In this document: positions 12,394 through 30,529 of the stretch, one piece after another
Layout of the letters: every line of letters starts with the position of its first letter
How positions within the stretch are numbered: position 1 is the stretch's first letter
Origin: Bacteroidales bacterium
Lineage (GTDB): Bacteria; Bacteroidota; Bacteroidia; Bacteroidales; GCA-2748055
Direction of reading: 5' to 3'
NCBI GenBank assembly: GCA_030589895.1
Contig: JAUUZQ010000036.1
Location: 1 to 34,035, forward strand
Length of the DNA stretch: 34,035 nt
Made by a program: the position numbers and the translations under genes
Notes under the pieces: model-generated
Seen by the model: the letters and a program-made list of their open reading frames with translations, nothing else
Databases searched by the model: none
What the model was told of the DNA's origin: nothing

Positions 12394-13233
12394 TTAATTA
12401 TTTGCGTGATAAGCAGCAAGCTCATCTGCAGGTTTATCCAGTATTTTATAGAGTTCGAGGCCTTCATCTTTCATAACTTCGGTCAGTATATCTCTAAAAT
12501 GAAAAGCAATCGATCCTATAAATCCAATATTGTAACTCTTGTAATTTTTGTATTTGGATATATTTTTTCTTAAAAAAGATTTAAATGCTGAGTATACGAT
12601 ATCTTTAATCTCATCTTCATGTATATAATCATTTACTATAGTTGAAAAGGATGCCAGGTATTTATTTGGCTGAGGCTTTTTATACACATTAAGAAGTATA
12701 TCCTCTATTGAGAGTGATTTTTCTTTCAGAATTTTCTTTCGCAAATTTTCACTTATATCTTTTTTCAAAAGTGCATTTATTAAGCGTTTCCCAATATCGC
12801 TTCCACTTCCTTCATCGCCAAGTATGTACCCAAGGGCAGGTATTTTATCAATAATTTTCCCCTCTATATAGAGCGATGAATTTGAACCGGTACCAAGGAT
12901 GCAGGATATACCGGATTCTTTATGAAATAACGCTCTTGATGCGGCCAGTATATCATCATTAACAAATATGCGAACATCTTCTCCGAAACTTATCCGGAGG
13001 AGTTTATGAATTATTTCTTTTACTTCTCTGATAGCCAGGCCCGCGCCATAAAAATGAATTTCTGTTATACTGTTTTTAAATTCCAGAAGTCCAAGGCTTT
13101 CTATCTCCTTCAGGATAAGATCTTCTTCAACGAAAAATGGGTTAATACCATTCCCACTATAGCTTCTTGCGGAGCCCGAGGAAAGCAATCTCCATTCTGT
13201 ATTTGTTGAACCGCTGTCGGCAATTAACTTCAT
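12394..13233 (-). CDS. BadF/NagK/MurK-type amino sugar kinase
   Basis: An ASKHA-fold kinase of the BadF/BadG/BcrA/BcrD family, the family that includes mammalian GlcNAc kinase and Clostridium MurK, which phosphorylates MurNAc and GlcNAc. The 279 residues show phosphate-1 DSGSTNTEW at the N-terminus (residues 6-14), a second phosphate loop GTGSNSSLY (about 114-122) and GYILGDEGSGSDIGK (about 134-148), which contacts sugar and ATP in relatives. It starts at ATG 13233; a TTG two codons upstream is ignored. murQ follows after 20 bp, so the likely product is MurNAc-6-phosphate, feeding MurQ; GlcNAc kinase is the alternative. No transporter for the free sugar is in the window. Confidence 0.85.
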   Translation of the reverse strand: MKLIADSGSTNTEWRLLSSGSARSYSGNGINPFFVEEDLILKEIESLGLLEFKNSITEIHFYGAGLAIREVKEIIHKLLRISFGEDVRIFVNDDILAASRALFHKESGISCILGTGSNSSLYIEGKIIDKIPALGYILGDEGSGSDIGKRLINALLKKDISENLRKKILKEKSLSIEDILLNVYKKPQPNKYLASFSTIVNDYIHEDEIKDIVYSAFKSFLRKNISKYKNYKSYNIGFIGSIAFHFRDILTEVMKDEGLELYKILDKPADELAAYHANN

Positions 13234-13264
13234 TTTCAATATCCTCTTAAGAAATCATTTCAGT

Positions 13265-16200
13265 TTACTTCACTATTATAATAGGTTTTACCATGTAATT
13301 ACTCCCATCAGTAAGCTTAATATAAAACAAGCCTTCATCTTTGAACACCTCATTTTTTATTATGAATTTTCCATTATCTTCAGTAATCATTTTGAGATTG
13401 GATGATGATATTATCTCTCTTCCATAAGAATTAAAAATGGTAAATTTTATTGTTTCCTGAGAGCTTCCATCTATGCTTAGAATAATATCTTCATCGGATG
13501 CAGGATTAGGATATATGGTTATTTCTCCATCGATTATAAACTCAGATTCAATGCTGTTTCCTTCGCTGGTTTGAAAATACTTATTTGCACTAAATATGCT
13601 ATATCCATATTCATTCTTTGCTGCTGCTCTAATGAAATACCATGAAAATTCTTTTAGACGTGATGTGATGGATGAGCTATTTGGAGAAGCAATAAAACTT
13701 TCAGAATGGTAAATATTTCCGAAGTTACCGTTCGTCGAAATTTCAATATATATGGAATCAGAGACATCATCACTGTCCCATACAATTTCGGGCCATAAAT
13801 CATTAACCATTGATAATTGTGCCGGAGATAAGATGGATGGACGGGTAGGATAGGCTGCCTTAAATTTCCGGGTCTCGCTAAACTCGCTCTCTCCAAATTC
13901 ACTTTTTACCTTGACATGCCAATAGTAATCTCTTTGGCCCTCTAAATGCATCTGTGAAAGAGCAATTTGAGTTTCACTTATCCAGCCTGAATTTGTAATT
14001 ATGTTTGAAAAATCTGAATCCATAGAAATCTCCAGTAGATAAGTAATAGTCCCCGTTGTAGCTGTAGTCTCCCATTGAAACAGATCATAAGAGGCCATAT
14101 CAGACATATCTGCCGGTTGTAATACTGTTACATCAGGTATTTCACCAGCAGTAGTTTCAAATAGATTATATTTTGTGTATTCACTTTCACCAAAAGCATT
14201 TCTCGATTTTATCCTGATATAATACCAGGTCGCTTTGGCCAATTCTGTATTGAGAGTACCTTCTCCATCAGCTGCATCAAAGCTCTCTTCTGCAGCGAGT
14301 GTTGAAAAACTGCTTGATTCAGATATCTCGACATCTATAAATGTACTAACAACAGATGATGACCATTTAATTTTTAGTGTTGTATTGACATTTTGAGCAA
14401 GGTTATTCGGATAAATAATCTGGGGATGAATCGGATAAGCTGTAATAAATTTGCGGGTATTTGACCAGGGACCTTCAATATCTGTTTTTGATTTAACTCT
14501 CCAGAAATATTCGGTTTCTCCGGCAAGCTCCAGGATATTAACTTCTGCTTGCTCCTCCGATATCCAATTGCTTTCATAGTTAATAATACTGAAACTGGAG
14601 TTAACTGAAACTTCAAGTTTATATAATGCTCCTCCTTCCGAACCTTCCCATGTTAAGAGGGAATTCAGAGAGATGGATTCATTGTTCGCCGGAAGTATTA
14701 GATTGACAGTTGGAAAATCGACATCGAGGAGATATATTTGGCTTGCAAGACTTTCCGCTCCTTTTGCTGCAATTGCAGTTACGACGATGGATGAGTTTGC
14801 TGAAAAATCAAAATCTGTGAAAGCAATGGAATCTTCAAATACAATCGCTTTGATATTCTCAGAAATTGCAATTATCTGACTGGAATCCATAGCTTCAATG
14901 GTGGAGTATACTGCAAAACGATCATTCATTTCACCAGTGTAATCCCATTTTAGATAGTAAGCCCCATCTCTTTTTACAGATCTTATATTTTGAGGTTCCT
15001 GAGGAATTTCACCTGTTTTCCATGTTATGTCAGGAATGATAGCCGGATGAGTATATTTATATTGTGCGAGATAATCAGCAAGTCCATTCACGCGTTGAAA
15101 GTCTTTTGCACTAAAGAAAACACTTCCCAATCCGCTCTCGTCTCGTCTGTTTCTTACAATATCTATTTGAAGACCAATTTCACTTAATGTCCATTCTGAT
15201 ACAGGGTCGCTTGTGCCTTTTAATGAACTCTCCTCCATAGAAGAGAGGTCGAGAGAGTCAGTGTTTACGACGATGAGATCATCGAAATAACTTTTATATT
15301 CATGAAGGTACTCATCCTGGTACGTGACAGACTTTTTTGTACCTGGATTATAAGGTAATCGATAAGTACCCTGTCCTGTGTATAAATGCCTGTCATGAGC
15401 AAAACATTGATCGGCCCACCAATTGGCCAGTGTTTCAAAATCCTGTGCTCCGCCGGTTGGCCAGTATAGCTGAGGAGTTAAATAATCAACGGTTTGATCG
15501 TTCAGCCAGGCCAGAGGATCACAATAAATCTGACTATATGCATCCATTCCATATATTCCTGTGGGGGTTCCCGATTTGTATATGCCAAATGGACTAACCC
15601 CAAACCTAATGTTGGAATTTACTTTCTGAATTACTGAATAAACAGTATCAATCATGCGGTTAATATTATCTCGTCGCCAGTCCGAAAGAGTCATTCCACT
15701 TCCATGCATTGCAAATTCATCTGCATCAAGTGAAGATGATGTTCCTTCGTAAGCGTAGAAGTAATCATCAAAATGAACACCATCAATTGCATAGTTTGTG
15801 CATAGATCCTGCACAACAGCACCTATGTAGGTCATTACTTCCGGAAGTCCGGGGTTTAAAAGGAGTCGGCCTGTTTCATATTCCATTGCCCATTCAGGGT
15901 GTTCCTTATATATATGTGTGGAATGAAAATAATCTGCTGATGGATATAATTTCGCACTCAAACGATAGGGATTCATCCATGCATGAACTTCAATTCCTCT
16001 TTTATGTGCTTCATCAATCGCAAACTGAAGAGGGTCATAACCGGGATCATCACCCTGATTTATAGATAAATATCTCGACCAGGGCTCAAAGGTCGAACTA
16101 TAGAAAGCATCACATTCAGTTCTTACCTGAAGAAAAATAGCATTAAGATTTATTGATTGATAGAGATCGAGTTTAGATATAAGATCTGCCTTTTGAGCTG

Positions 16201-16357
16201 CCGCATCACCTCTGTCAGCAGGAGCGGGCCAGTCAATATTTGCTACCGTGGCCACCCAGGTAGCTCTCATTTCATTTTTCCCTTCACTCTGAGCTATGCT
16301 TTGTAGAGAAAGAAGAATCAAGAAACAGAATAGTATATATTTTAAAAGATATCTCAT
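13265..16357 (-). CDS. GHL10 glycosidase with Fn3-like repeats and T9SS tail
   Basis: Family 10-like glycosyl hydrolase (GHL10, the DUF187 group); its studied relative E. coli DigH cuts peptidoglycan glycan strands lacking stem peptides. Of 1030 residues, 1-22 form a signal peptide ending SIAQ. The TIM-barrel domain (about 28-420) has MRATWVATVANIDWP, FLQVRTECDAFY (75-86), HAWMNPYR (125-132) and the acidic signature DGVHFDDYF (192-200), then GVSPFGIY and YLTPQLYW. Beta-sandwich domains follow: one near 450-555 and four Fn3-like repeats (about 560-940), each with a YYWHVK/WYFIRA-type strand. The last 80 residues (ITIYPNPASDE...FYIKLTDG) are a type A T9SS sorting domain, so the protein is surface-exposed or secreted. 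It lies between SusD and the kinase. Confidence 0.9.
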   Translation of the reverse strand: MRYLLKYILFCFLILLSLQSIAQSEGKNEMRATWVATVANIDWPAPADRGDAAAQKADLISKLDLYQSINLNAIFLQVRTECDAFYSSTFEPWSRYLSINQGDDPGYDPLQFAIDEAHKRGIEVHAWMNPYRLSAKLYPSADYFHSTHIYKEHPEWAMEYETGRLLLNPGLPEVMTYIGAVVQDLCTNYAIDGVHFDDYFYAYEGTSSSLDADEFAMHGSGMTLSDWRRDNINRMIDTVYSVIQKVNSNIRFGVSPFGIYKSGTPTGIYGMDAYSQIYCDPLAWLNDQTVDYLTPQLYWPTGGAQDFETLANWWADQCFAHDRHLYTGQGTYRLPYNPGTKKSVTYQDEYLHEYKSYFDDLIVVNTDSLDLSSMEESSLKGTSDPVSEWTLSEIGLQIDIVRNRRDESGLGSVFFSAKDFQRVNGLADYLAQYKYTHPAIIPDITWKTGEIPQEPQNIRSVKRDGAYYLKWDYTGEMNDRFAVYSTIEAMDSSQIIAISENIKAIVFEDSIAFTDFDFSANSSIVVTAIAAKGAESLASQIYLLDVDFPTVNLILPANNESISLNSLLTWEGSEGGALYKLEVSVNSSFSIINYESNWISEEQAEVNILELAGETEYFWRVKSKTDIEGPWSNTRKFITAYPIHPQIIYPNNLAQNVNTTLKIKWSSSVVSTFIDVEISESSSFSTLAAEESFDAADGEGTLNTELAKATWYYIRIKSRNAFGESEYTKYNLFETTAGEIPDVTVLQPADMSDMASYDLFQWETTATTGTITYLLEISMDSDFSNIITNSGWISETQIALSQMHLEGQRDYYWHVKVKSEFGESEFSETRKFKAAYPTRPSILSPAQLSMVNDLWPEIVWDSDDVSDSIYIEISTNGNFGNIYHSESFIASPNSSSITSRLKEFSWYFIRAAAKNEYGYSIFSANKYFQTSEGNSIESEFIIDGEITIYPNPASDEDIILSIDGSSQETIKFTIFNSYGREIISSSNLKMITEDNGKFIIKNEVFKDEGLFYIKLTDGSNYMVKPIIIVK

Positions 16358-16418: not shown

Positions 16419-17954
16419 CTAGTAATTTATTGTTCCAAATTTCTTTGACCACCAAACTTGTTGATAATATGAGTCACCTCCCTGAATTTCAATCGCATCA
16501 AGATAATTTGCATTATTCAGATCTATCTCATCGTCAGGATAAGGGAGTCTGCCCGGCAGCGTATTCCGATCAACATCAACCCAATCATAGCTTATTATTT
16601 TGACACCATCCAGTTCAAGATCATATTTTTTCAATTGAGGAAATCCAGTCCGTCGGTAATCTGAGAATGCTTCCCATCCATTTAGAAATAAAGAGATCCA
16701 TTTTTGAACCATGATTTGTTCAAGGGTATTGTCAAATGCTCCGTCATTTGCAAGAAAATCATCAATATCGACTTCATCAATTTCATAAAAGGACATAGAA
16801 CTTCTTACTCCATTTTCATACCACATTTGAGCATCTTCTGTTGTCCATGTTCTAAATGCTGCCTCAGCTCTCAGAAAACAAACTTCAGAATAGGAGAGGA
16901 GCGGTTTGGTAAGTGTAGGATTATCAGAAAAGTATTGTCCAATGTATGATGTTGTTGAAACACCCATTCCCATTGCCTGATTTTCCTTAAGGGTTGCATT
17001 CATAAGATTGGGGACTCCCCGGTAGCTTACATTATCTGTTTCAACAGCTTGAGCATAGATTTCAAGTCGTGGATCATCTGTGCCATCTAACTGAAGTTTC
17101 AGTAACTCACTAATTTTGGGAGTTGTTGTTCCTGTTAATTCAGGACTGGTTGGGTTTTTAGAGTTGATATTAATATCAAAATATGGGTTCCACCATTCCT
17201 GCGTTTCAATATATTGAAAGAGTGCTGATTCATCATTATCAGAGATCAGATTATTCTCAGTTAATATTTCATTCACAACCGTTTCATTGCCACTTCGGAC
17301 AGCAAGTCGGAGACGCAATGAATTTGCGAATTTCACCCATAAGTCAAGGTCTCCTCCAAATATCATGTCATTTGAATAGAAAGGCTTTTCCGGATCAATT
17401 CCTGAAGCAGCATCTTTAAGGATGCTAAGAAAATTCTCATATATACTTTCCTGACTATCATATTTAGGTTTTATTGTTTCGTCAGTATAGCTCTCAAGTA
17501 ATCCAAATGCATCGGAATAGGGTACATCACCCCAAAGATCTGTTACCTTGTGAAAACAGTATATTTTCCATATTCTGGCTACTTCATATTTGTTCACCAG
17601 CTCAGGGTCGTCTTTTGTCATTTTTTCCAGAACATGACTGTTTAATAGTAAGTTTGAATAGTAATACTCCCAAATAATTTGAATTCTATATTGATCAAAA
17701 ATGGTGTAGGGAGGCATGGTAGAATTACCCCATACTGCTGCTGTTTGCATAATCCATCGCTGGATATATGTATAGTTGTAGTTGGTGACAACGCCAAATT
17801 CTCCTCCAGCCTCTTTGAGAACATAATTAAATATGTAATCTGCATCTGCTGTGGAGGGATTATTTGGATTTGTGTTGATCTCTTCAAAATTATCAGTACA
17901 AGAGGTAGTGATAATTATTGCTAAAATTATACTGCTTAAATATTTGATATTCAT
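16419..17954 (-). CDS. SusD-like outer-membrane lipoprotein
   Basis: SusD-type proteins are surface lipoproteins that cap the SusC channel and bind the glycan or peptide substrate. The 511 residues begin with a lipoprotein signal and lipobox ITTSC (Cys19), followed by TDNFEEIN, acidic residues close to the cysteine as expected for export to the cell surface. FEEINTNPNNPS and later TDLWGDVPYSDAF, LYWVKFANSLRLRLA-like (DLDLWVKFANSLRLRLAVR), CFLRAEAAFR and NGWEAFSDYRRTGFP are typical of the SusD-like_2 family. It lies 14 bp after the SusC gene. The substrate cannot be read from sequence; the neighbours suggest a peptidoglycan product. Confidence 0.94.
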   Translation of the reverse strand: MNIKYLSSIILAIIITTSCTDNFEEINTNPNNPSTADADYIFNYVLKEAGGEFGVVTNYNYTYIQRWIMQTAAVWGNSTMPPYTIFDQYRIQIIWEYYYSNLLLNSHVLEKMTKDDPELVNKYEVARIWKIYCFHKVTDLWGDVPYSDAFGLLESYTDETIKPKYDSQESIYENFLSILKDAASGIDPEKPFYSNDMIFGGDLDLWVKFANSLRLRLAVRSGNETVVNEILTENNLISDNDESALFQYIETQEWWNPYFDININSKNPTSPELTGTTTPKISELLKLQLDGTDDPRLEIYAQAVETDNVSYRGVPNLMNATLKENQAMGMGVSTTSYIGQYFSDNPTLTKPLLSYSEVCFLRAEAAFRTWTTEDAQMWYENGVRSSMSFYEIDEVDIDDFLANDGAFDNTLEQIMVQKWISLFLNGWEAFSDYRRTGFPQLKKYDLELDGVKIISYDWVDVDRNTLPGRLPYPDDEIDLNNANYLDAIEIQGGDSYYQQVWWSKKFGTINY

Positions 17955-17968
17955 AATATATAATATTT

Positions 17969-20900
17969 TTAGAATGACAGTCTTAAATTAAACCCAACTG
18001 ATCTGGTGGTAGGCATTGCTGCATATTCCTGACCCAGTCCATTGTTGCCGGAACTAAAGGAAGATTCAGGATCAATATGTGGAACACCACTATAGATCAG
18101 CCATAGGTTTTTTCCAATAATTGCAAAGGAACCACTGGTAAAGAAGTTGTTTGCAAACCAATTTTCTGGTAGCCTATAGTTCAGCGTAACATCTCTGAGC
18201 TTCACATAACTGGCATCATAAACATCCAACTCTGCAATCCCTCCCCATTTTCTTTGATGCCAATATACCTGAGGATCCATTCCTTTAATATTTTCAGATC
18301 CATCTGCGAGAACTCCGTCTGCGACATAACCAACCGGATCTGATGTAGCATCAAACATTTGATTGTCGTCCCCATCCAGCATTGGAGTTTCATCTGTATT
18401 GTATAAGCCTGTGCGTCCCATTAGTTTTTCAGCATTTGTTGCATTGTACCATGATTCGCGGCCCTCCAGTGTTTCAACAAACTGACCATTGTCTTTTCCG
18501 TATTTATTGGTCTTTGAAAACATCTCTCCACCTACAGAGACTCCAACAGAGAAGGAGAGGCTAAGATTTTTATATCTAAAACTATTGGTAACACCTCCCG
18601 ACCAATCCGGAGTGATATTTCCAATAACATCTCTTTCCCCCATGATATAGGCGCCGTTTTCATCGAGTAGCGGTCTGCCATTGTTGGGGTCATCAACAAT
18701 ATTTCCGCTTCCATCTGTTTTATAGAACCTGGTAATCGTGGTTCCAATTATCTCACCAAAAGGTCTTCCGGGGATGGCTACGATATCAATTTGACTCTCA
18801 TTTGTAATGGTGATCTGCGCCAGACCGTCTGCTAAGCTCAGAACTTCATTGGTGTTTCTTGCATAGTTGATTGAAACATCCCAATTAACATCCGCAGCTT
18901 TCAATGGTGAGGCGTTGAACTGAAGCTCAATTCCTTTGTTTGCAATTTCACCTCCATTTGTAACAATACTACTATAACCTGAAGCCTTAGATATTTCAGC
19001 TGTAACAATTTGATTATAACTTGTCTCATTATAGTATGTCAGGTCAATACCCAATCTGTTTGCTAAAAATCTCATATCGGAACCAATTTCCCAGGATATT
19101 GTATTCTCTGATCTGAGATCAGGTTTTGAACCCTTACTGCTCAAGAAAATAGCCGGGGAGTTTCCATATTGTTGATTTATAAACTCGCTTGAAAGTTGAT
19201 ATGGGTTTGTGTCATTACCCACTCCTGCTATCGAAAATCGAACCTTTCCAAAGGTGATATATTTGTTCTTCAAATTGAAAGCCTCAGTAAACACAAAACT
19301 CATATTCATTGAAGGGTAGAAATATGAATTATTCTCAACCGGCAGGGTAGAGGACCAGTCGTTTCTGGCCGTTAATTCAAGATAAAGCCATGATTTGTAA
19401 CTCATCTGAGCTGATCCATAAAATGATTGAATAACTTTCTCTCGTTTAGTTGACCCCATCGATGATTCAGCAGGATATTTTGGATTATTCAAAGAGAAGA
19501 AATTAGGTACGGCTAGTCCATTGACAGTAGAAGATTGGTAGTCTAACCAGTAACTATAATAATTTCCACCCAGATTTGCATTTATTTTAAAGTCTTCTCC
19601 AAAATCTTTATCTGCAGTTAAGAGAAAATCATGATTCAGCGATCTGTAATTTACCCATCGTTCTGTAAAAGAACCCTCACCGTTGGCTCTAAGTGCGTTG
19701 TTTCCAATTCTGAGGAATCTTTTGGACACATATGTATCCATACTGCTTCGCACAAATCCATGCAGCCAGGGTGTTAAATTCAAATCTATTTTTGCATATC
19801 CAATAAACTGGTCCTTATTATCATTGTTATAATTTTCGTAAGCTTCCCAGTAGGGATTTGTGTGCCAATCATTTGCAAAATACCAGTTTTGTTCAAATCC
19901 ATTGTCGCTTTTATAATCATCCCTTAGTCTGTTGATATCAATGCTTCTGGGCATCCACACGAATGTTCTGGCTCCAGTCCGGGAATCACCCTGGCCTACT
20001 CTGTTAAATGCATCTTCTCGAATATAGTTTCCCTTAAAACTAAAACTAGCCAGATCATTCAGTTTAGAATTTATATTGAAGTTCACGCTTTTCCGGTCAT
20101 AGCTACTGTTTGGTTTAATGCCGGTATTATTTAGTGACGCAGCAGAAAATCTCCAATTGACACCTTCTTTCCCATTCTCAATTGAAACAGAATTGCTTGC
20201 CGTATACCCATCTTCAAAATAGTCTTTTACATTATTAGGTTGTGCTTCCAGGGTCGTAAATTCCCCGTTCCAGTTCAGTACTTCAAATGTCCCATCCAAT
20301 TCCGGTCCCCAGCTACCCGTAGAATAGTAATAATAAGCAGAATCAACTCCATATGTTACTTCCTGCTCAGGCGTCAGCGCCTGCTTCTGAATTCCACCTC
20401 CATAACCTGCCCCATAACTGTTTTGGTAATCAGCTGTGATATAAGCTCTTTCGAACATAAAGTTTGAATTGATCGTTACCTTCAAGTGATCTCTCCCTGT
20501 ACCTTTTTTCGTAGTAATCATAATTACTCCCATGGCAGCACGAGATCCATATAAGGCGGCTGCATTAGGTCCCTTTAATATTGAAACCGTTTCAATATCA
20601 TCAGGAGAAATCCCCATTAAACTATTACCATAATCGAGTCCCCCAAGCCATGAAGCGCCATCAGCACTGTTGTCGATAGGCACACCGTCAATTACAATCA
20701 ATGGCTGACTCTCGGTTGACAGGGATTTTACTCCCCTGATTATAATCCTTGAAGATGTTCCGGCACCTCCGGCAGTTTGAGAGATATTAACACCCGCCAC
20801 CTTGTTGCTTATTGAGTTAATGAAGTTAACATCACGGTTGGTCGTTAAATCATCACCATTTACATCAGAAAAGGAGTAGCCCAGTGCCTTTTTCTCCTTT

Positions 20901-21247
20901 TTGATACCCAGGGCAGTGACCACAACCTCTTCCAAACCTAAGGTTGACATCTTTAGCTTAACTTCAACATACGTCAAGCCGGCAATATCTACTGTTGTAG
21001 TTTCATAACCTATATAAGAGATGATCAGTGAATTGATCGACTCAGGTAGAGTAATTGAAAAATCTCCATCAATGTTTGTGATTGTTCCAATAGGAGCTCC
21101 GCCATCAGCTGGTTGAGCCACTACAGTTGCCCCAATTAAGGGAAAGTCTTCATGATCGAGGACTAAACCGCTTATCGTTTTACTTTGAGAAAATCCCATA
21201 CTGGATATACTGAACAGGACCAATAAAAATATTATTAACTTTTTCAT
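17969..21247 (-). CDS. SusC/RagA TonB-dependent outer-membrane transporter
   Basis: SusC-type barrels import oligosaccharides or peptides through the outer membrane with energy from TonB. The 1092 residues begin with a signal peptide (1-20, ending GFSQ), then a carboxypeptidase-regulatory-like domain (about 24-110, LDHEDFPLIGATVVAQ ... ISYIGYETTTV), a TonB-box region around EEVVVTALGIKKEKKALGY, the plug (VAGVNISQ ... RIIIRGVKSL ... PLIVIDGVPIDN ... ILKGPNAAALYGSRAAMGVI, about 145-245) and a long barrel ending in RSVGFNLRLSF with a terminal aromatic residue. The length is usual. No STN domain is seen, so no direct anti-sigma signalling is suggested. SusD follows after 14 bp. Confidence 0.96.
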   Translation of the reverse strand: MKKLIIFLLVLFSISSMGFSQSKTISGLVLDHEDFPLIGATVVAQPADGGAPIGTITNIDGDFSITLPESINSLIISYIGYETTTVDIAGLTYVEVKLKMSTLGLEEVVVTALGIKKEKKALGYSFSDVNGDDLTTNRDVNFINSISNKVAGVNISQTAGGAGTSSRIIIRGVKSLSTESQPLIVIDGVPIDNSADGASWLGGLDYGNSLMGISPDDIETVSILKGPNAAALYGSRAAMGVIMITTKKGTGRDHLKVTINSNFMFERAYITADYQNSYGAGYGGGIQKQALTPEQEVTYGVDSAYYYYSTGSWGPELDGTFEVLNWNGEFTTLEAQPNNVKDYFEDGYTASNSVSIENGKEGVNWRFSAASLNNTGIKPNSSYDRKSVNFNINSKLNDLASFSFKGNYIREDAFNRVGQGDSRTGARTFVWMPRSIDINRLRDDYKSDNGFEQNWYFANDWHTNPYWEAYENYNNDNKDQFIGYAKIDLNLTPWLHGFVRSSMDTYVSKRFLRIGNNALRANGEGSFTERWVNYRSLNHDFLLTADKDFGEDFKINANLGGNYYSYWLDYQSSTVNGLAVPNFFSLNNPKYPAESSMGSTKREKVIQSFYGSAQMSYKSWLYLELTARNDWSSTLPVENNSYFYPSMNMSFVFTEAFNLKNKYITFGKVRFSIAGVGNDTNPYQLSSEFINQQYGNSPAIFLSSKGSKPDLRSENTISWEIGSDMRFLANRLGIDLTYYNETSYNQIVTAEISKASGYSSIVTNGGEIANKGIELQFNASPLKAADVNWDVSINYARNTNEVLSLADGLAQITITNESQIDIVAIPGRPFGEIIGTTITRFYKTDGSGNIVDDPNNGRPLLDENGAYIMGERDVIGNITPDWSGGVTNSFRYKNLSLSFSVGVSVGGEMFSKTNKYGKDNGQFVETLEGRESWYNATNAEKLMGRTGLYNTDETPMLDGDDNQMFDATSDPVGYVADGVLADGSENIKGMDPQVYWHQRKWGGIAELDVYDASYVKLRDVTLNYRLPENWFANNFFTSGSFAIIGKNLWLIYSGVPHIDPESSFSSGNNGLGQEYAAMPTTRSVGFNLRLSF

Positions 21248-21286: not shown

Positions 21287-23626
21287 CTAATCATCAGTAA
21301 TAATCAGATGTGTAGATATTTCACTGTTGCCAATAATTTTTAAAATAAAAGTTGATCGCCTTTTTGCACTATTGTTAATTACGATTTCCTGCAGATTCTT
21401 ATCTATAACTCCTGACTGAAGGAGTTTTCCATCAATAGAATAGATTGAATATTTTGATTGAGCATCTTCCAGACCGGAAATGAATATACTATTCCCGCTC
21501 AATGGATTTGGAAATACGGTCAAGCTGCTTTTTGAGAAATTCCGATGAACTCCTAATGTACCGTATTGACTTAATACATCGAACAAAATATCTCCGGAAA
21601 GTTTAGAATCAGCATTTGAAGATAGTTTTAGATATTCAATAGCTGTAGCTCCTTCCGGAATATCTAATGTAAGGAAATTCCATCCTGCAAAATCCATATC
21701 TCCCAATTCAATTTCAGAGCTGTTATCGAAACCAATAGCTACTGAATTTTTACTCATATTTCCCCATATCCATAAACCTAGGGTATCGCTATTTGCAAGC
21801 AATGAAACAGGACTTACAGGTCTGATTATGCAATTCCCGCTTTCATCAAAAAAGGTATACCTTAAAAAGAGTGAGGCTTCACCTGAACGGTAGGCCTTCT
21901 TCCATAAATATATGAATGAAGCCGGGTCTAAGTGATTACTGGACCCAAAATCCAATACCCAATCAGATATACTCTCCATATCATTGAGAACAACAGGTTC
22001 ACCAATATCCGGCATAGTATGGAAAGAAATTTTAACAGTATCTACCAATGGAATGTTGTCTTCGTCTTTTATAGAGCCCAGTAGCTGAAGAGTATAGTCC
22101 TCATCGTAGCTTAAATCTATTGCAGGAGAGAAATAATAATGTCCCTTATCATCAATGGTAGTAATATCTGATCCCCTTGTACCAATTATTTCACCGCTTG
22201 ATGAGATAATGCTTACTGCATCAATCAGTGATGAATTCTTGATTGCTGCATCAAAGATAAGTCTGAATTGTAGAAACGGACTGATATCCACCTGATTGAT
22301 AGCAGGAAAACTTGTGTCTACTATATATCTGTTCCTATTGTCAGTTAAGAAACTGAATTCCAGGGAAGTGTCGAGTTTTACTCCCCATTGATGTTCAGCT
22401 AAAGTGTCAACAAATACTGTGTATTCTGTCTCTGTATCATAAGGAATATCAGGTTGAAAACTCACATTAAGGTAGTCACTATCCCATAAAAAGCTCCCCG
22501 CAATTTCAGGAGAAATTGAAAATGCCTCTGCAAAACTGCTTGAATCCATATTCATATTGAAAGTGAAATTAACTGGGTCAAAACATTTGATCAGGCCTCC
22601 ATTTTCCGGAGTGTGTCCAGTAATTTGAGGAGCCATTGATTTATCTGCTTCGAACCAATAATTCAGATGATTGTGTTGATGGGGATCAATGTGGATATCC
22701 ACTGTATCAGTGTAATAATTAATTGCTGAAAATATAAGCTTATAATCGCCCGGAGCGATACTATCGAAATAGTAAAACCCTGTGTTCAAGTCATCCACGT
22801 TATAAATTTCTCCAGTTTCCAGTATTTCAACTTTTGCTCCATTTACAGGCAAGTATTTATCGGCTGAATTTGGAATTGAATAGTTTTCATTTATCAGGAA
22901 GGAGTCCCTGACGATTCCGGTAATATTACCAGTTTCCTCAAGTCCGGTGATGTTAAAATAAGTTACCATGGCGTACATCATATTCCAGGCTTCCTGCTTC
23001 CTGTATTCAAGGTTCAACAAGCGGTCTACTTCTGGTTGATAATCGTGAAAGCTTCCTTCTGAAATAATTCCAGGTACTGCTAGCGGCCATAGAACTCCAT
23101 ATCCGGATGTCCATGATGGATTTAATGTCAGATCACCAATATAGTGAGGAGAGGTATGTGTCCAGAAGGTTGCTTCGTTGGTTATCAACTGTTCCCAGAG
23201 AACAATTGCCCACTCTTTGGCTTCCGGGATTGTGGGAGTTTCACTTTTCCCATTAAAGATTGTAAGGGGAAAGTTAACAGATTGATTAGCGGCATTTGAA
23301 TGTATTGAAATAAATAAGTCGACATTATTTGAGTTTGCCATTTGAGCAATTTGAGACAGGGGAAGGTCATCTTCGGTGCGGTTTAAAACTCTTGACATTA
23401 CAACTTCGCATCCTCTGGCTTCAAGCAGATCTCTTAACCATAGACCCTTTGTAAGATTTCCTTCAGATTCCCAGAATCCATTCGGCATACCCCTGTCGTC
23501 AGAATCGTGACCTCCATGACCGGGGTTTATCATTACCTTAATGTTACTAAAATCAGGTGCTTGTGCAATTGAAAGTGACAAAACAACCGACATAAGTAAT
23601 ATGGATATATAAATTTTTCGTTTCAA
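21287..23626 (-). CDS. Secreted amidase_3 protein with Ig-like domains and T9SS tail
   Basis: A predicted N-acetylmuramoyl-L-alanine amidase carried by the SusC/SusD locus. Of 779 residues, 1-22 are a signal peptide. The zinc amidase_3 domain (about 28-230) has INPGHGGHD (His37), ESEGNL (Glu55), SIHSNA (His109) and IISEGSFHD (Glu190), so all metal and catalytic positions seem present. Then come a carboxypeptidase-regulatory-like domain (about 234-330), two Big_5-type Ig domains (about 333-530), a beta-sandwich that may bind glycan (about 535-690) and a type A T9SS sorting domain (from SLTVFPNPLSGNSIFI). No in-frame ATG precedes the signal peptide; TTG at 23626 gives MKRKIYISILL, while the first ATG (residue 12) would lose the charged start, so TTG is preferred. 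Confidence 0.9.
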   Translation of the reverse strand: MKRKIYISILLMSVVLSLSIAQAPDFSNIKVMINPGHGGHDSDDRGMPNGFWESEGNLTKGLWLRDLLEARGCEVVMSRVLNRTEDDLPLSQIAQMANSNNVDLFISIHSNAANQSVNFPLTIFNGKSETPTIPEAKEWAIVLWEQLITNEATFWTHTSPHYIGDLTLNPSWTSGYGVLWPLAVPGIISEGSFHDYQPEVDRLLNLEYRKQEAWNMMYAMVTYFNITGLEETGNITGIVRDSFLINENYSIPNSADKYLPVNGAKVEILETGEIYNVDDLNTGFYYFDSIAPGDYKLIFSAINYYTDTVDIHIDPHQHNHLNYWFEADKSMAPQITGHTPENGGLIKCFDPVNFTFNMNMDSSSFAEAFSISPEIAGSFLWDSDYLNVSFQPDIPYDTETEYTVFVDTLAEHQWGVKLDTSLEFSFLTDNRNRYIVDTSFPAINQVDISPFLQFRLIFDAAIKNSSLIDAVSIISSSGEIIGTRGSDITTIDDKGHYYFSPAIDLSYDEDYTLQLLGSIKDEDNIPLVDTVKISFHTMPDIGEPVVLNDMESISDWVLDFGSSNHLDPASFIYLWKKAYRSGEASLFLRYTFFDESGNCIIRPVSPVSLLANSDTLGLWIWGNMSKNSVAIGFDNSSEIELGDMDFAGWNFLTLDIPEGATAIEYLKLSSNADSKLSGDILFDVLSQYGTLGVHRNFSKSSLTVFPNPLSGNSIFISGLEDAQSKYSIYSIDGKLLQSGVIDKNLQEIVINNSAKRRSTFILKIIGNSEISTHLIITDD

Positions 23627-23654: not shown

Positions 23655-24386
23655 CTAATTTCTCAGTCTAATTCTGGCAGTATAAATATTGCCATCCGGA
23701 GTGCTGAAAACCAATCGGTCAGCACTATTAGAGAATTTGGGATACATTGCTATTACCTGATCTTTATCAGTCAATATAGATTTTTTGTTGCTTGATAAAT
23801 GTATTGCAACAATTTCAGATGTAAGGATCTTTTCTCCATCATCATCATCATTCATACCCACAATCCACTCATCATTGATCCAGGAAGGATCATTCAGGTT
23901 ATTCAGGGAATGCAGAATATTGCCCTGCAAATCAGATATAAAAGTGCCTTTACTTGTAGCAGTATAAAGAATTCTTGTTTTATCAGGAGAGAGTGAGGCC
24001 CAAAGATAATAGCAATCACCAGAAGGGGAGAGGGTAATATTTTCTTCTGAGTTTAAGTCTATTTCTATCTGCTTTCCATTTGTTTTTATTGATGGATATT
24101 GCGGGCTTGCTTTTATATAAGAGGCTAATTCAGGGATTTCAGAAATTTTAGAATCTGCATTCCTGGCATCAGATAGTTGTTTCTCTTCTTTGGATCTGGT
24201 ATTGTATAAGAACAAACCTTTGTGGTTCATGCCTGTGAACAGAATATCATTTTTATTATTGGAAAAAGTAGGAAAGTAAGCTTTCGTGCTGAGTTCAGCT
24301 TTTTTGAGTTTTCTAACTTTGATTTTTTGACAATCAGCAGAAAATGCAATTGTTATTGTAATTAATATAAGTAGGATCTTTTTCAC
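23655..24386 (-). CDS. Exported small PD40/TolB-like beta-propeller protein
   Basis: A 243-residue protein with a signal peptide (KKILLILITITIAFSADCQ) and PD40-type propeller blades such as AYFPTFSNNKNDILFTG, YLWASLSPDKTRILYTA and AMYPKFSNSADRLVFSTPDG. Between blades are strands ending in an inserted acid stretch NDDDDGE. At this length it can hold only four or so blades, so it may be a partial or open propeller. The start is GTG at 24386, directly before the lysines of the signal peptide; no ATG is closer. It follows the terminator-like hairpin at 24503-24527 and precedes the amidase by 28 bp. The function is unknown; a periplasmic binding or scaffold role is possible. Confidence 0.75.
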   Translation of the reverse strand: MKKILLILITITIAFSADCQKIKVRKLKKAELSTKAYFPTFSNNKNDILFTGMNHKGLFLYNTRSKEEKQLSDARNADSKISEIPELASYIKASPQYPSIKTNGKQIEIDLNSEENITLSPSGDCYYLWASLSPDKTRILYTATSKGTFISDLQGNILHSLNNLNDPSWINDEWIVGMNDDDDGEKILTSEIVAIHLSSNKKSILTDKDQVIAMYPKFSNSADRLVFSTPDGNIYTARIRLRN

Positions 24387-24543: not shown

Positions 24544-27500
24544 TTATTGTGTCTTAACAAAACTATGAACTTTCGATTGTCCATTTTCATTTCTAACGTT
24601 AAGATAGTAGATTCCTGCTTCATATGATTCCATACTTAACTGAATCTCGGTCTCATTAAGATTATCCATCCTCATCAATACTTTACCTGTAATGTCAACA
24701 AGACTCAGGCTGTTGATTAATGTGGAGCTGCTAATAGTAAGCATATCAGCAACCGGATTAGGATAGATCATTGAATGATCAATACCGTTTAATCCAACAG
24801 ATACATCTGTAATAAGCACGAAATCAGAAATCACGGCAAGACCTTCAAGGTAAGCATCACCGCCAGTAGCAGAGACAGGGATTACCTCAAAGCCAACATA
24901 CTTATCAAGAAGATTAGAGCTGATAGTAATAGTAATGCTCTTCTCTCCAAGTATCTTTAGCTTATCAGATCCTGTTGCATCAGTTGCTTCATACCATTGG
25001 TATAAGCTGGCACCTTCAGCATCACCATCTGCATCAGCGAAAGTATAAGCTCCTGTTAATACCTCATCTGGCATAGCTGTTCCGGAAATTGAAACTGCAG
25101 AAGCTGTTGGTACTTCAGCACCAACTATGTTCTCAACACTCTCTGGTCCAAAGGCTGCAAGTGGCATGCCATTGAATGAAGATATAGTACCGGTTCCGTC
25201 GTATGATAGCAGTACAACCTGACTTTCAGTAATCGCTGTCACAAGATCAAAAGTAACTGTAGTTCCTGAACTGTAAACAGTGTCTATTACCAATGCAGAG
25301 CCATCTGCAGAAAGTGTCCATACATCTGCATCTGTTTTAGAAATTTCCTCTATAGCCATATCGAATTCAGCCATAAGCTTATCGCCTTCGAATGTAGTTA
25401 TAGCAGATACAAACTGAGGAAGTTCGAGTTTCCCTTTATACGCTGCGATAGCATTTTTAGCCTGCAGTATATAGGCATAATAGAACTCTCCATCCGTAGT
25501 TACATCAACTTCACCTATATAACCATCCCACGCCATTGAATTGGATACATACTCTGTTGAATCCACAATCTGGTATGGAGGAGCAGTTATATCAGCAATG
25601 ATTATTCTTGCTCCCAATGGTTCTTTTCTCATAGCCTGGAAAAAGGCTGCCATTGTACGACCCTTGTATTGGAATACATTTGGAGAATTAGATTGAATCT
25701 TGTATGCAGAATAGTCATCAATCTTTTCTATACTTCCAATCTGATTCATATCCTTGTCAAATATTCGAGGAGCTAATCCTTTGCCATCTACCAGAATATT
25801 TGCATCAATACTTGCTGAAAAAGGAACAACTGCCGGAGAAGTCTCCATAGAAGCAAGTCCGTTCAGTGTAAGAATTTCAGCATCAGCAGCTACACCACCG
25901 GTAACAACCCAGCGAACAATATGATTACCACCAGAACGGGCAGCCATAATGATTGCGTTCCCGGATACATCACCTGTAACAGAGAATTTGTCACCCAATC
26001 TCATTGTCTCAGGCAGAGTAACTGTTAACCATTTGACAGGATCTGCCAATTCATCTGTCCATTTATAGATCCAAAAATCTAATGCATCATTAAGAGGAGC
26101 AGCAAGAATTTGTCCGTCGTCTGATACTTCTATATCATTTATAGTATAGATGCCATCTTCTATTCCCACAGTGCTTAACTCTCTGACAAATGAACCATCA
26201 TTTTTATCAATAACAATTACTTTGGTTCCACCGTTGCGACTGGCAATATAAATATGATCAGCACCAATGGCAAATCCACGTTCAGTAGTTGCAGCGGAGT
26301 TAATATAATACGGTACACCACCAGTATTTGAAGCACCTCGCCATAACCTTTCAATACCTTCTGAATGTGTTGAAGCAATAGCTGCAACTGTACTATAATT
26401 TGTCATGACAGCAGTTCCTTCAAGAAGACCTCCTGTTTGTGCAACCGGAGTTATTTCAAAGGCAATGAATTTACCTACTTCAGTTTCTGAAATAAGTAGT
26501 GTTTGTTTTGTGGCACCAGAAATTTCTGACTGGCCTGTACCTGTTGCATCATCAGCTGTGTACCATTTGTAAATGGAAGCACCTTCCGGATCTGCAGCAT
26601 AGTCAGTATAAGTGTATGTTGCGCTCATGAGAATTCCAACTTCCGGAGTTCCGATCATAACAACACCCGTAGCTTCAGGAGCAGCATCGGCAGGTTTCGC
26701 TGCAATCGCTCCGGAGGCAGTACTTACTGCTGTTCCTGTTTCTCCTGCATCTGTTACCGGAGTAACTTCAAAGAGCATATACTTAGCTTCGTCAGCTGCC
26801 AACAACTCATAAGTTAATGAACCACTTGCCACTTCCGTTGCGCCGGTTCCGGCAGCATCATCAGCACGATACCACTTTATCAGTGTAGCTCCTTCTACAT
26901 CGTCATTTATGTCAGCATAGACATATGAGCCTGTAAGTGTTCTGCTTACCTCCTCTATACCAGCGATAGCCAGATTAGAAGCTGTAGGCGGAGTTGCTGC
27001 ATACGGAACTGTAGTTGCAGTAGCAACAGATACAGCTGTGCCTGTTGGACTGTTTCCAGTGGCAGCAACAGGAGTTACTGTGAAAATTATGAATTTCCCA
27101 CCATCATCAGCAACTGGAACATACGTAAGGCTGGCAGTAGCAACACTTATCGCACCTGCTCCTGCTGCATCATCAGCACGGGACCATTCATAAATCGAGC
27201 TACCTTCAATATCACCTTCAACATCGTTGTATGTATATGAAGCTGTTAATGTTTGCCCTATCTCAACAGTTCCTGCAATTGCAAGGTCAGTTGCTACAGG
27301 TGGATTGTCAGTTAGAACTGGTCCAACTAAATTTGATTGCTTTAAATGATTTAGGCTGGAAACAGTTCCAGTCATAGCAGTTGGTATGATAGTGTATGAA
27401 ATATACTTATCAGCATCTGCTGCACTCAGTGAATAAGTTGTCTGATTCGCATTTCCTGTAAGCTCTTCCGGATTAACCAGACCAGCAGCATCATCAGATC

Positions 27501-28662
27501 TGTACCATGCAATAGTTGAGCTTCCTTCAGAATCATTATTTATGTCAACATAAGTATATTGAACTGAAAGATCTTCACCAACTGCAGGAGTTCCTGTAAG
27601 TAGCACATCTATTGCAGTGGGGGCTCCTTCTGTTGCAAGTTCTTTCGTATATCTGTAGGCAGAAAACGAGAATATTGCATATGATCCATCAGGATTAACT
27701 TTAATGCATTCTTCCTGTCCATAGCCGTGTATGCTACTTGCCGGAGATGCTACTCCTGCTATAGATACAATATCAGCAGCTTCAACATCAGAGAAATCAG
27801 CTGCCGCTCCTGTTAAATCAACAATTGTTACATTGCCTGCATTGGAGACCGCTAAATAATCGTTTCCCCCTGCAGTAAATGGTTTTGCACCAGCAGTAGT
27901 TCCTGTAAACAGTGCTGCGTCAATCGCACCAACGATACTTCCACTTCCATCAAACAGAGTTGGATTTTGCAATAAAGAGTTATTATACCAAAAACCACTT
28001 GCAATTGTTGTTCCCAATGCCTGAACATGAGCATGTGTAGCACCATGTCCTGCTACACCTAATCCCATCAATTTCAGATCACCTAAATTACCATTCGTAG
28101 CTTCAAAATAGTATAATGAATCTTCATTATGGAATGGTATAATTATCAAAGCCTCAGTATTGTAATCTCCTGTTACACTAAAGCCCCCTGAAAAATCAAG
28201 TGAATGAGCATATCGTGCTGGAGAATCCACCCATAGTTGTATGGGAGATGCATCCTCATTGGCCCAATAAAAAAGCTTTTCAGGATGAAAACGATTCTGA
28301 GAAGTAATGATTGCGTATATTCCACCTGCATCATCTACTTCGACATCCTTGATACCATACCCCATCTCTGCCAGAGATAAAGGCTCAAGTGTTAAAGTTT
28401 TAATTACAAGACTTGTAGACGCATCCAGTACCATTATTTTATTATCTGCTGCAGTTGCAGCAGCACCATCATTACCTGCTACATAGAGGTGGTTGTTATT
28501 CTCATTATATGCAATACCCCTAAAATTGTAGTGTAATGATCCGGTAGCATTCCATGTAGGATGTAATTCTTTCCAGACCTCAGTTGGCTGGGCTTTTACA
28601 GTCATATTTCCACTAAGAAACAGGACTGAGATAAGCAATAAAAAAGTAGTTTTGATTTTCAT
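24544..28662 (-). CDS. Large DUF4623-type double-propeller protein, Ig repeats, T9SS tail
   Basis: A 1372-residue surface protein. After a signal peptide (to about 24, ending VKA) comes a first propeller-like region (about 28-345). Four tandem Ig-like repeats of about 100 residues follow (near 347, 454, 559 and 657), each with a YTYxDxxxDxEG core, then W-x-R-A-D-D-A-x-G. A second propeller (about 755-1105), DUF4623-like with LGDKFSVTGD, matches the neighbouring 475-aa protein. A Big_5-like domain (about 1106-1183), a fifth Ig-like repeat (about 1184-1285) and a type A T9SS sorting domain (SMIYPNPVADMLTISS) complete it. The protein is markedly Ala/Thr-rich compared with its neighbours. The function is unknown; the layout suggests binding or adhesion. 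Confidence 0.85.
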   Translation of the reverse strand: MKIKTTFLLLISVLFLSGNMTVKAQPTEVWKELHPTWNATGSLHYNFRGIAYNENNNHLYVAGNDGAAATAADNKIMVLDASTSLVIKTLTLEPLSLAEMGYGIKDVEVDDAGGIYAIITSQNRFHPEKLFYWANEDASPIQLWVDSPARYAHSLDFSGGFSVTGDYNTEALIIIPFHNEDSLYYFEATNGNLGDLKLMGLGVAGHGATHAHVQALGTTIASGFWYNNSLLQNPTLFDGSGSIVGAIDAALFTGTTAGAKPFTAGGNDYLAVSNAGNVTIVDLTGAAADFSDVEAADIVSIAGVASPASSIHGYGQEECIKVNPDGSYAIFSFSAYRYTKELATEGAPTAIDVLLTGTPAVGEDLSVQYTYVDINNDSEGSSTIAWYRSDDAAGLVNPEELTGNANQTTYSLSAADADKYISYTIIPTAMTGTVSSLNHLKQSNLVGPVLTDNPPVATDLAIAGTVEIGQTLTASYTYNDVEGDIEGSSIYEWSRADDAAGAGAISVATASLTYVPVADDGGKFIIFTVTPVAATGNSPTGTAVSVATATTVPYAATPPTASNLAIAGIEEVSRTLTGSYVYADINDDVEGATLIKWYRADDAAGTGATEVASGSLTYELLAADEAKYMLFEVTPVTDAGETGTAVSTASGAIAAKPADAAPEATGVVMIGTPEVGILMSATYTYTDYAADPEGASIYKWYTADDATGTGQSEISGATKQTLLISETEVGKFIAFEITPVAQTGGLLEGTAVMTNYSTVAAIASTHSEGIERLWRGASNTGGVPYYINSAATTERGFAIGADHIYIASRNGGTKVIVIDKNDGSFVRELSTVGIEDGIYTINDIEVSDDGQILAAPLNDALDFWIYKWTDELADPVKWLTVTLPETMRLGDKFSVTGDVSGNAIIMAARSGGNHIVRWVVTGGVAADAEILTLNGLASMETSPAVVPFSASIDANILVDGKGLAPRIFDKDMNQIGSIEKIDDYSAYKIQSNSPNVFQYKGRTMAAFFQAMRKEPLGARIIIADITAPPYQIVDSTEYVSNSMAWDGYIGEVDVTTDGEFYYAYILQAKNAIAAYKGKLELPQFVSAITTFEGDKLMAEFDMAIEEISKTDADVWTLSADGSALVIDTVYSSGTTVTFDLVTAITESQVVLLSYDGTGTISSFNGMPLAAFGPESVENIVGAEVPTASAVSISGTAMPDEVLTGAYTFADADGDAEGASLYQWYEATDATGSDKLKILGEKSITITISSNLLDKYVGFEVIPVSATGGDAYLEGLAVISDFVLITDVSVGLNGIDHSMIYPNPVADMLTISSSTLINSLSLVDITGKVLMRMDNLNETEIQLSMESYEAGIYYLNVRNENGQSKVHSFVKTQ

Positions 28663-28689: not shown

Positions 28690-30117
28690 TTATTTAATGA
28701 GTAATTTTCCTGAAGAGATCATATTGTTATATTTTACCTGATAAGTATATGTTCCCTGAGAGAGATTTGATGTATTAATATGTGTTTCCTGTTGACCAGG
28801 ATTTGCTTCATCTGCAGTAATACTCAAAAATCTACCGCTCATATCATATATTTTAATAGCAACAGCTCCTTGCGCATCCTGGGGCAGGGTATATCTGATA
28901 TTGGCAAATTCAGAAGCAGGATTGGGAAATACAGAGATATTGAATTCATTGGTAAAATGAGGTTCTACATCAATTACATAAGGTAATCCGTCGATCCTGT
29001 AACAAGCAATCCCGTTAGATGGGGCACAGACATATACGTAAAGCTTCTCATCAATAATGCCAAATTCAACAGCACCTTCTCCATAGGCATTGTCAAATTT
29101 TGTTCCAAAAGTAGGAGTGAAACCAATAATATCAGCATCTGTTACATTTTCCCCTTGTTTTGTCAGATCAATAATAAAAGCACTTTGATCCCCACTGAAC
29201 ATAACCATATAGAAATTTTCTCCATATTCAATTGTACGTCCGGCTACAGTCGAAGAAGGTAGCTCGCCCGCGGAAATTGCTACCTGACTAAGATTTACAC
29301 CATCAAGTGTGAAAAGTGTTGGTAAAAATCCTTTGCCACTTACATACATCCAATCTGATTTTGAGGGAACGTCCGCAACCGTAATTGACGTTCCTGCAGC
29401 AGAAATATCCTGAAGACTTATAACTGTAGGAGATTCATCCACAACACCGGCACTGACTTTCCAACGAAGAAGCTTGGTGCCTTCACTGGGCCCCGCATAA
29501 ATATATGCCTCTGTTTCCCAGTTGCCAATAACACTGAATTTATCACCTAATCGGTAACCGCCCTCTTTGTAATCAATAATAAGTGCAGGAATACCCTGTT
29601 CCCAGTCCCAGCGGTATACCCGGAAAGCTTTCACTGTTATTACATCATCAGTACCAACTATATCAGGACCTGAAGCCAGGGTCATATTGCAGCCAAAAAT
29701 ACTGCCGTCTTCAGTGGTAGTTACATTGTTAAGTGGATAGCCACCGCCAAACCATGCATCAGATGACGTGATTCCTGTGGTAAGCAGTTGAGAAACTCCG
29801 AAAGCAGGAGCTTCCCCGGTCATGGGGTCCAAAACAAATACATGTGGCTCTCCCTGGTCTGGTACATTGTCCCCGTTTGTATCTTCAGCATGACGACTGG
29901 ATACATATACATGACCAGAATAGTCGCTGTAAACAATCCCCCGTTCTGTACCTGCAAAGGAGTTGTCTCCTCCTGTCTGCTCTGGTTCAGTTCCATCAGT
30001 AAACCAGCTTGGGGCATCAACACCAAAATGTGACCACATTTCAACGAAAGTAACCTGAGCCGAAGAAATACTATGCATTGTTGATGTTAGGAGTAATAGT
30101 AGAATAATTTTTCTCAT
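28690..30117 (-). CDS. DUF4623-type propeller protein with T9SS tail
   Basis: A 475-residue protein, first gene of the leftward string. Signal peptide 1-20 (ISSAQ). The body (about 25-385) has repeated beta-strand units such as RGIVYSDYSGHVYVSSRH, GYRLGDKFSVIGNWETEAYIYAGPS and AVEFGIIDEKLYVYVCAPSNGI, as in DUF4623, a propeller-like family of Bacteroidota without known function. The last 80 residues (FNISVFPNPASEFANIRY ... LSQGTYTYQVKYNN ... GKLLIK) are a type A T9SS sorting domain, so the product is exposed at the surface or released. The LGDKFSV motif and its surroundings recur in the second propeller of the next gene, 27 bp downstream; the two are paralogues. Confidence 0.85.
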   Translation of the reverse strand: MRKIILLLLLTSTMHSISSAQVTFVEMWSHFGVDAPSWFTDGTEPEQTGGDNSFAGTERGIVYSDYSGHVYVSSRHAEDTNGDNVPDQGEPHVFVLDPMTGEAPAFGVSQLLTTGITSSDAWFGGGYPLNNVTTTEDGSIFGCNMTLASGPDIVGTDDVITVKAFRVYRWDWEQGIPALIIDYKEGGYRLGDKFSVIGNWETEAYIYAGPSEGTKLLRWKVSAGVVDESPTVISLQDISAAGTSITVADVPSKSDWMYVSGKGFLPTLFTLDGVNLSQVAISAGELPSSTVAGRTIEYGENFYMVMFSGDQSAFIIDLTKQGENVTDADIIGFTPTFGTKFDNAYGEGAVEFGIIDEKLYVYVCAPSNGIACYRIDGLPYVIDVEPHFTNEFNISVFPNPASEFANIRYTLPQDAQGAVAIKIYDMSGRFLSITADEANPGQQETHINTSNLSQGTYTYQVKYNNMISSGKLLIK

Positions 30118-30529
30118 AATCTGAAGTTTATTGTTATTATTACAAAATCGAATTCCATTTGCATTCTATTTGTCATACAAATTTATATATACACCATTTT
30201 TAGGGTGTAAAATAAAAGGGGGAAGAAAGAATACTCCAACTCTCGTATCCCAAAGTATAATGGGCATAAAGAGCATAAAAGCCTGATAATATTGATATAA
30301 TTGACATCATTCATGAAACAAAAATACATCGATAGAAGATACGAATCCACTGTTTTGATATGTTGTATAGCATGTATTTGTATTATGTATGATGTATGAC
30401 AAATATTTTATTTGGGTGTATCTTAGCGCATAATTAGATGGATTTATTTGTTGTAGAGCAAAGTGATTGGTCTAATATTACTTGTATTATAACATCATTT
30501 TAGATAAATTATATCCAATATTTCTAACT
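30118..30529. promoter_or_regulatory. Divergent intergenic region between the two operons
   Basis: A 412-bp spacer without a credible gene; it must carry promoters for both the DUF4623 string and the second GHL10 unit. For the leftward side, minus-strand TAAATTTG (30185-30178) matches TAnnTTTG, giving a leader of about 55 nt, but no -33 TTTG is seen at normal distance. Next to it is an inverted repeat TACACC/GGTGTA (30190-30195 and 30204-30209). GGGTGTA occurs again at 30414-30420. Five TGTAT motifs occur at 30364, 30373, 30379, 30386 and 30393. Rightward only near matches to the -7 box exist (TTTATTTG at 30407 and 30443). Confidence 0.45.

Follow-up and report, generated by a model that had tools for sequence, protein, structure and literature searches.

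Gene content of the locus

The window, i.e., the whole stretch of 34,035 nucleotides that was analysed (contig C84 of a Bacteroidales genome), contains a run of nine genes that lie on one strand with short gaps between them, from 30117 down to 11564. They are given here from first to last, with the evidence for each assignment in brackets.

28690-30117, minus strand: T9SS surface protein of 475 aa, DUF4623-like by a weak match, first of the run (profiles)
24544-28662, minus strand: T9SS surface protein of 1372 aa containing AIR9/Ig repeats and a region similar to DUF5018 (profiles)
23655-24386, minus strand: PD40/WD40-like beta-propeller protein with a signal peptide and without a T9SS tail (synteny, family profile, model)
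21287-23626, minus strand: predicted surface N-acetylmuramoyl-L-alanine amidase (profiles, structure model, alignment of relatives)
17969-21247, minus strand: SusC/RagA TonB-linked outer-membrane transporter (TIGR04056, 604 bits)
16419-17954, minus strand: SusD-like glycan-binding protein (PF12771, E 4.5e-74)
13265-16357, minus strand: GHL10 glycosidase with a T9SS tail, Cwp19-related (PF02638, E 2.6e-67; TIGR04183, 26.9 vs. 23)
12394-13239, minus strand: MurNAc/GlcNAc kinase of the MurK/K1058 family (PDB matches)
11564-12373, minus strand: MurQ, MurNAc-6-phosphate etherase, last of the run (PRK05441, 358 vs. 168; TIGR00274, 302 vs. 302)

Within this run susC adjoins susD, and the T9SS-tailed GHL10 gene comes directly after susD, both being features by which a polysaccharide utilisation locus is recognised. 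The 1372 aa T9SS protein is likely a surface glycan-binding protein. The GHL10 domain of the glycosidase has one PDB match, i.e., Cwp19 (5oq2, E 1.2e-79). E. coli DigH presumably belongs to GHL10 as well, and denuded glycans are the product of amidases. DigH is described as specific for denuded glycans (PMC12288456), and lytic transglycosylase activity has been demonstrated for Cwp19 (PMC6016235).

The best PDB matches of the kinase were 1zxo, T. forsythia K1058 and MurK, and 1zbs (E 1e-53 to 2e-57). MurK residues S133-P134-L135 are described as leaving space for the lactyl group (PMC10465942), and at these positions of the alignment the window kinase reads P-A-L, with a bulky charged residue being absent. 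The window MurQ matches PDB entry 4s12 (E 5.4e-69) and is, at 269 aa, shorter than the 307 aa of MurQ in Ignavibacteria-type loci, as is likewise the MurQ of a close relative (L046). Outside the run, the 4713-11558 region of the window holds a SPOR-domain amidase gene with DnaA, MCE and LptD neighbours, and in 16 relatives the SPOR amidase has all or some of these neighbours too.

Domains and catalytic site of the amidase

The amidase ORF (779 aa, with TTG as the start codon) encodes a signal peptide, an Amidase_3 domain (residues 27-227), a CarboxypepD_reg-like domain, two Big_5/Ig domains, a CBM-like sandwich (542-690) and a T9SS type A tail (704-773). An earlier model-made reading of the letters (the sequence-only reading) had described an Amidase_3 domain within a multi-domain T9SS protein at this position, and its coordinates, frame and domains were all confirmed. 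More specifically, Pfam recognised Amidase_3 (PF01520) at residues 31-214 (E 6e-18, 65.9 bits vs. a cut-off of 27) and Big_5 in two stretches (E 2e-14), and scored CarboxypepD_reg at residues 260-322 with 28.3 bits, under its cut-off of 32.3. The latter domain had been called regulatory-like, and its function as a regulator was rejected because the name is a Pfam fold label only.

Structure prediction of the catalytic site and the beta-sandwich, which had been proposed as a check, yielded a model of the amidase built from 45 sequences with a mean pLDDT of 90.9. A fold search placed residues 27-227 among the PDB amidases (Z 20-25), with matches to 4rn7 (Z 25.1), C. difficile Cwp6 (5j72, Z 24.2) and AmiC (4bin, Z 22.9). 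Moreover, residues 206-328 resembled a carboxypeptidase D structure (Z 12.7), Ig-like domains were located at 331-431 and 433-539, and the beta-sandwich at 542-690 matched FlaA1 (Z 17.0), the mannanase CBM 1wky (14.0), a xanthanase region (6fhj, 13.9) and the CBM 2c26 (13.2). A sugar-binding role for this modelled sandwich is a fair guess, though a shared fold is no proof of function.

Residues H37, E53, H109 and E190 of the zinc site were each found in 45/45 relatives, and align with H59, E73, H128 and E240 of the SPOR amidase. The sequence-only reading had placed the ligands at 37, 55, 109 and 190, and three of these (H37, H109 and E190) stood as invariant, whereas the second ligand had to be moved from E55, which is E in 17/45 relatives, to the invariant E53 that is aligned with E73 of the SPOR enzyme. 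The remark that ligand spacing differs between both enzymes held, with the second H and last E being 81 apart in the window amidase (H109-E190) vs. 112 in the SPOR amidase (H128-E240). This shorter spacing fits the loss of a segment that the SPOR enzyme has in common with E. coli AmiC/AmiA, and a search for an AmiA/AmiB/AmiC-type extra segment in the amidase was negative, its model spanning 201 residues vs. 227 in AmiC (4bin), with 184 aligned. We take the absent segment to be the region of the autoinhibitory helix in Ami enzymes. Judging from its sequence, the amidase would cleave MurNAc-L-Ala bonds.

Of all domain calls in the amidase, that of the T9SS tail is the least secure, since the tail passed TIGR04183 narrowly (24.5 bits vs. 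a cut-off of 23) and stayed under the cut-off of PF18962 (19.1 bits vs. 27). This weak tail was accepted because TIGR04183 was present in 39/45 amidase relatives at E <= 0.001. Three neighbours of the amidase are also T9SS-tailed (TIGR04183), and SprA_N, a T9SS translocon family, is encoded on contig C200 of the window genome (profile positions 307-509). The amidase is predicted to be a T9SS type A cargo, displayed at the cell surface.

A PD40 protein accompanies the amidase

With a threshold of E <= 1e-20, amidase relatives occurred in 5/198 genomes of the order and in 45/395 genomes of the phylum, the window genome being counted in both. A scan of named genomes provided 79 amidase loci from the best 80 of 480 candidates, and in 69/79 of these a PD40 gene was situated directly upstream on the same strand (79 pairs, with a median gap of 15 bases). 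In nine others PD40 was fused in front of the amidase (L078, L091, L098, L100, L112 and L115-L118); here a signal peptide precedes PD40, and the amidase part has none of its own. At the remaining locus (L064) only 401 bases of contig precede the amidase, so that the PD40 position is cut off. The total of adjacent or fused PD40 genes, i.e., 78/79 loci from the best 80 of 480 candidates, marks PD40 as a dedicated partner of the amidase, and in the fusions it must travel with it. The propeller is shortened in the nine natural fusions to the amidase N-terminus.

PF07676 was matched in 34/39 members of the PD40 family, and not in the PD40 protein of the window itself. The model of the latter adopted a propeller fold, with the listed matches being mostly eukaryotic WD40 propellers (Z ~16) and with TolB being absent among the 50 fold matches listed. 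These model matches say propeller, and nothing more specific, and the lack of TolB among them carries no weight against any family.

Partner genes and gene order in relatives

Across the same 79 loci (best 80 of 480 candidates), at least one of five partner families was present near the amidase in 41/79, i.e., GHL10 in 21, NAGPA in 27 (both of these in 15), a MurK-like kinase in 6, MurQ in 4 and a golvesin-type amidase in 6, with two of the five families having been recognised by their very closeness to amidases. When restricted to the window-derived families (GHL10, MurK and MurQ), the count was 30/79 (best 80 of 480 candidates, tallied by hand). None of the five families was found in the examined locus DNA of the other 38/79. 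The NAGPA loci include L048, L059 and L089, in which T9SS-tailed or large NAGPA phosphodiester glycosidases stand beside the PD40-amidase pair (27/79 loci in all, best 80 of 480 candidates).

The SPOR amidase had one match in each of 17/20 genomes, where it is grouped with DnaA, MCE and LptD, and its regions served as a control from the same genomes. Partners were found in 0/16 SPOR-amidase regions vs. 41/79 amidase loci (Fisher p 4.5e-5), a comparison in which the 19 relatives were mostly picked for the presence of partners (19/19), 3/20 genomes had no SPOR amidase match, the window's own region was left out, the loci share ancestry, and some of the reference proteins had been taken from amidase loci. 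On this difference, a chance neighbourhood was rejected.

The three loci L046, L047 and L055, whose amidases are 54-66% identical to that of the window, keep the order of T9SS proteins, PD40, amidase, SusC, SusD and GHL10. In L046 (20300-21964), the MurK-like kinase and MurQ are joined in a single ORF of 555 aa, whose two parts share 52% and 78% identity with the respective window proteins, and this fusion ties the kinase to MurNAc. A different order is complete in L079, L087 and L124, where PD40 and the amidase are followed by MurK, a golvesin-Amidase_3 protein, GT2, DUF4922, SpoIID and AmpG, and in L079 and L087 NamZ starts next after AmpG. The first part of this order is seen in L082 and L083, and only MurK in L099, the contigs ending earlier. 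Finally, in the Ignavibacteria-type loci L057, L077 and L109, MurQ is divergent from the PD40-amidase pair. The MurQ gene of these three loci adjoins a Beta-lactamase2-family protein and a gene of ~199 aa (GNAT in L057).

The divergent unit and its promoter region

Upstream of the nine-gene run, a second set of genes points in the opposite direction and reaches the end of the contig.

30118-30530, no strand: divergent promoter region of 413 bases (two inverted TTTGTCATACA copies)
30482-32032, plus strand: second GHL10 glycosidase, in which a T9SS tail was not seen (PF02638, E 2.3e-70)
32073-33527, plus strand: GT2 protein (profile; its homologues come after the golvesin-amidase gene in relatives)
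33538-34035, plus strand: DUF4922 protein, cut at the contig end (PF16269, E 3.1e-58)

The true start of the second GHL10 gene is probably the ATG at 30531. The end of the window recurs as an exact copy of 127 bases at the beginning of contig C93 (L147), which carries the rest of DUF4922 and, after it, genes for a GNAT protein, AmpG and a GntR/FCD regulator. This AmpG (L147:1506-3344) counts 613 aa vs. 449 aa in L079, with an insertion between two matched halves.

The TTTGTCATACA copies are located at 30169-30179 (plus strand) and 30393-30403 (minus strand), and the motif recurs in L055 and L046, flanked by the same genes, and not in the corresponding divergent region of L047. Taken alone, the 11-mer is no rarer within the window than expected by chance (2 found vs. 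1.33 expected), with both copies falling inside the 413-base region. A wider regulon was rejected, as the 15-mer occurred once in the whole genome with up to one mismatch allowed. TTTGTCATACA resembles the TNGTNNNACNA pattern of GntR/FadR-type regulators, and its copies are candidate sites for the GntR/FCD regulator. Elsewhere in the window genome, NamZ is encoded on C123, away from the locus, and searches of this MAG (88.9% complete) gave 0 hits for SpoIID. NAGPA likewise gave 0 hits in the window genome, and was rejected as a part of its locus.

A probable peptidoglycan utilisation locus

We consider it probable that the amidase is the stem-peptide remover of a peptidoglycan utilisation locus, a reading that builds on the genes, their order and domains, the zinc ligands, the PD40 link, the MurK-MurQ fusion of a relative and the conservation of the gene set. 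The individual biochemical steps, their locations and their regulation are predicted from homology and gene order, and could proceed as follows. The type IX system would bring the amidase and its PD40 partner to the cell surface, where the amidase would cut the MurNAc-L-Ala bonds of outside peptidoglycan, likely as the first cut and with the CBM-like sandwich holding the wall. The T9SS-tailed GHL10 enzyme would then cut the bare glycan strands, SusC/SusD would take the pieces across the outer membrane, the second GHL10 enzyme would trim them in the periplasm, and AmpG would transport them through the inner membrane. MurNAc might subsequently be converted to GlcNAc-6-phosphate by the MurK-like kinase and MurQ, with the GntR/FCD regulator acting on the divergent promoter. 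It had previously been argued, without reference to the neighbour genes, that export of such an amidase is sensible only for peptidoglycan outside the cell, and the neighbours (i.e., GHL10 with a T9SS tail, SusCD, the MurK-like kinase, MurQ and AmpG) support that argument.

Several points count against this reading. GlcNAc could be the main substrate of the window kinase, and K1058 is slow on MurNAc (PMC10465942). AmpG, MurK and MurQ are also used in the recycling of a cell's own wall. Moreover, 38/79 loci are partnerless, the window genome holds an amidase paralogue (L004), the T9SS tail is near-threshold, and SpoIID was not found in the window genome.

The T9SS tails on both lytic enzymes, together with the absence from the amidase of the AmiA/AmiC segment, an autoinhibitory one, would also suit a weapon, i.e., a surface amidase and glycosidase that mainly lyse neighbour bacteria, with fragment uptake being secondary. 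However, feeding is the better fit to the MurK-MurQ fusion and to the operon-like linkage with the genes for SusCD, kinase and etherase, an immunity-like gene was not noticed at the locus, and the peptidoglycan of intact Gram-negative neighbours is shielded, so we regard a weapon as unlikely. That the enzymes would act on turnover fragments leaked from the cell's own peptidoglycan seems quite improbable to us, because SusCD and surface-displayed hydrolases would then be unexplained and because the housekeeping SPOR amidase is separate, together with DnaA, MCE and LptD (17/20 genomes), even though AmpG, NamZ, MurK and MurQ are recycling genes (PMC5388701) and AmpG and MurTKQ cluster in T. forsythia. 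An ordinary periplasmic or outer-membrane-associated amidase, with a tail that is a chance match or a placing in the locus that is accidental, would agree with the tail's mere 24.5 bits and with the 38/79 relatives (best 80 of 480 candidates) that have no partner gene in view, but is very improbable given the tail in 39/45 relatives, the adjacent or fused PD40 in 78/79 loci (best 80 of 480 candidates), and the order from T9SS proteins through GHL10 that L046, L047 and L055 keep.

The peptidoglycan utilisation reading can tentatively be extended to the T9SS NAGPA of many relatives' loci, which might expose the GlcNAc-1-phosphate linkage that joins wall teichoic acid to MurNAc. There could be a class of PD40/amidase-based peptidoglycan loci in Bacteroidota and in related lineages within Ignavibacteria, Calditrichota and Neomarinimicrobiota, by which the Gram-positive walls of living or dead neighbours might be eaten from the outside in. 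Because NAGPA gave no hits in the window genome, this teichoic-acid idea comes from the relatives only.

Relation to known systems

Guts, sediments and digesters are rich in peptidoglycan, and to our knowledge the scavenging of intact wall by Bacteroidota is known mainly from T. forsythia. The scavenging operon of T. forsythia resembles the window in that the MurK family, MurQ, AmpG, GT2 and DUF4922 are present in or beside it. Its published order is K1058, xanthan lyase, gtf, gtf, lytB, ampG and ybbC, and then murT, murK and murQ (PMC10465942; PMC5388701), and by this order L079, L087 and L124 correspond to it gene for gene through ampG, with DUF4922 presumably matching the second gtf. Unlike the T. 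forsythia operon, the window locus adds a surface T9SS amidase, GHL10, PD40 and SusCD, whereas murT was not seen at the locus, NamZ lies elsewhere (C123) and SpoIID was not found.

With SusCD polysaccharide utilisation loci, the window locus shares a single run of genes for SusC, SusD, surface-bound hydrolases and proteins of a glycan-binding type, and a regulator close by, but it differs in its predicted peptidoglycan substrate, its T9SS-tailed surface proteins, and its MurK and MurQ catabolism. C. difficile Cwp6 and Cwp19 represent the same amidase and GHL10 lytic transglycosylase families, yet sit on the cell wall of their own producer, while the window enzymes are predicted to sit on the outer membrane and act against a foreign wall. 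The Amidase_3 fold and its four zinc ligands are shared with E. coli AmiA/AmiC and the SPOR amidase, from which the window amidase is set apart by lacking the H-to-last-E segment and a SPOR domain, and by carrying a T9SS tail and extra domains.

Amidase_3, GHL10, MurK/MurQ, AmpG and SusCD are all known. A locus that combines them for the use of peptidoglycan at the surface did not turn up in the literature searched (with subscription journals mostly outside its coverage), and neither did a unit of PD40 and amidase. The locus offers named candidates per step and adds SusCD uptake to the scavenging scheme, and the nine natural fusions link the PD40 family with a surface amidase. Since the cultured Mariniphaga anaerophila DSM 26910 and Bacteroides salyersiae DSM 18765 carry parts of the locus, these proposals are testable now. 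Muropeptides also act as signals to hosts, so that the consumption of walls at the surface of gut Bacteroidales could have a bearing on immunity.

Other settings of the amidase

A second large T9SS-type amidase of the window genome (L004, on C198) is accompanied by PD40 and an HldE-like gene. It is situated near BtuB and YncE/DUF5074-like genes, a B12-uptake-like setting (names assigned by eye). This setting and the partnerless loci suggest that the amidase exists outside peptidoglycan loci too. In a group of Bacteroidales MAGs (loci L053, L056, L061, L062 and L080), the PD40-amidase pair has a pyruvate phosphate dikinase-like gene as its neighbour, and in L053 it is flanked by PEPCK on the opposite side.
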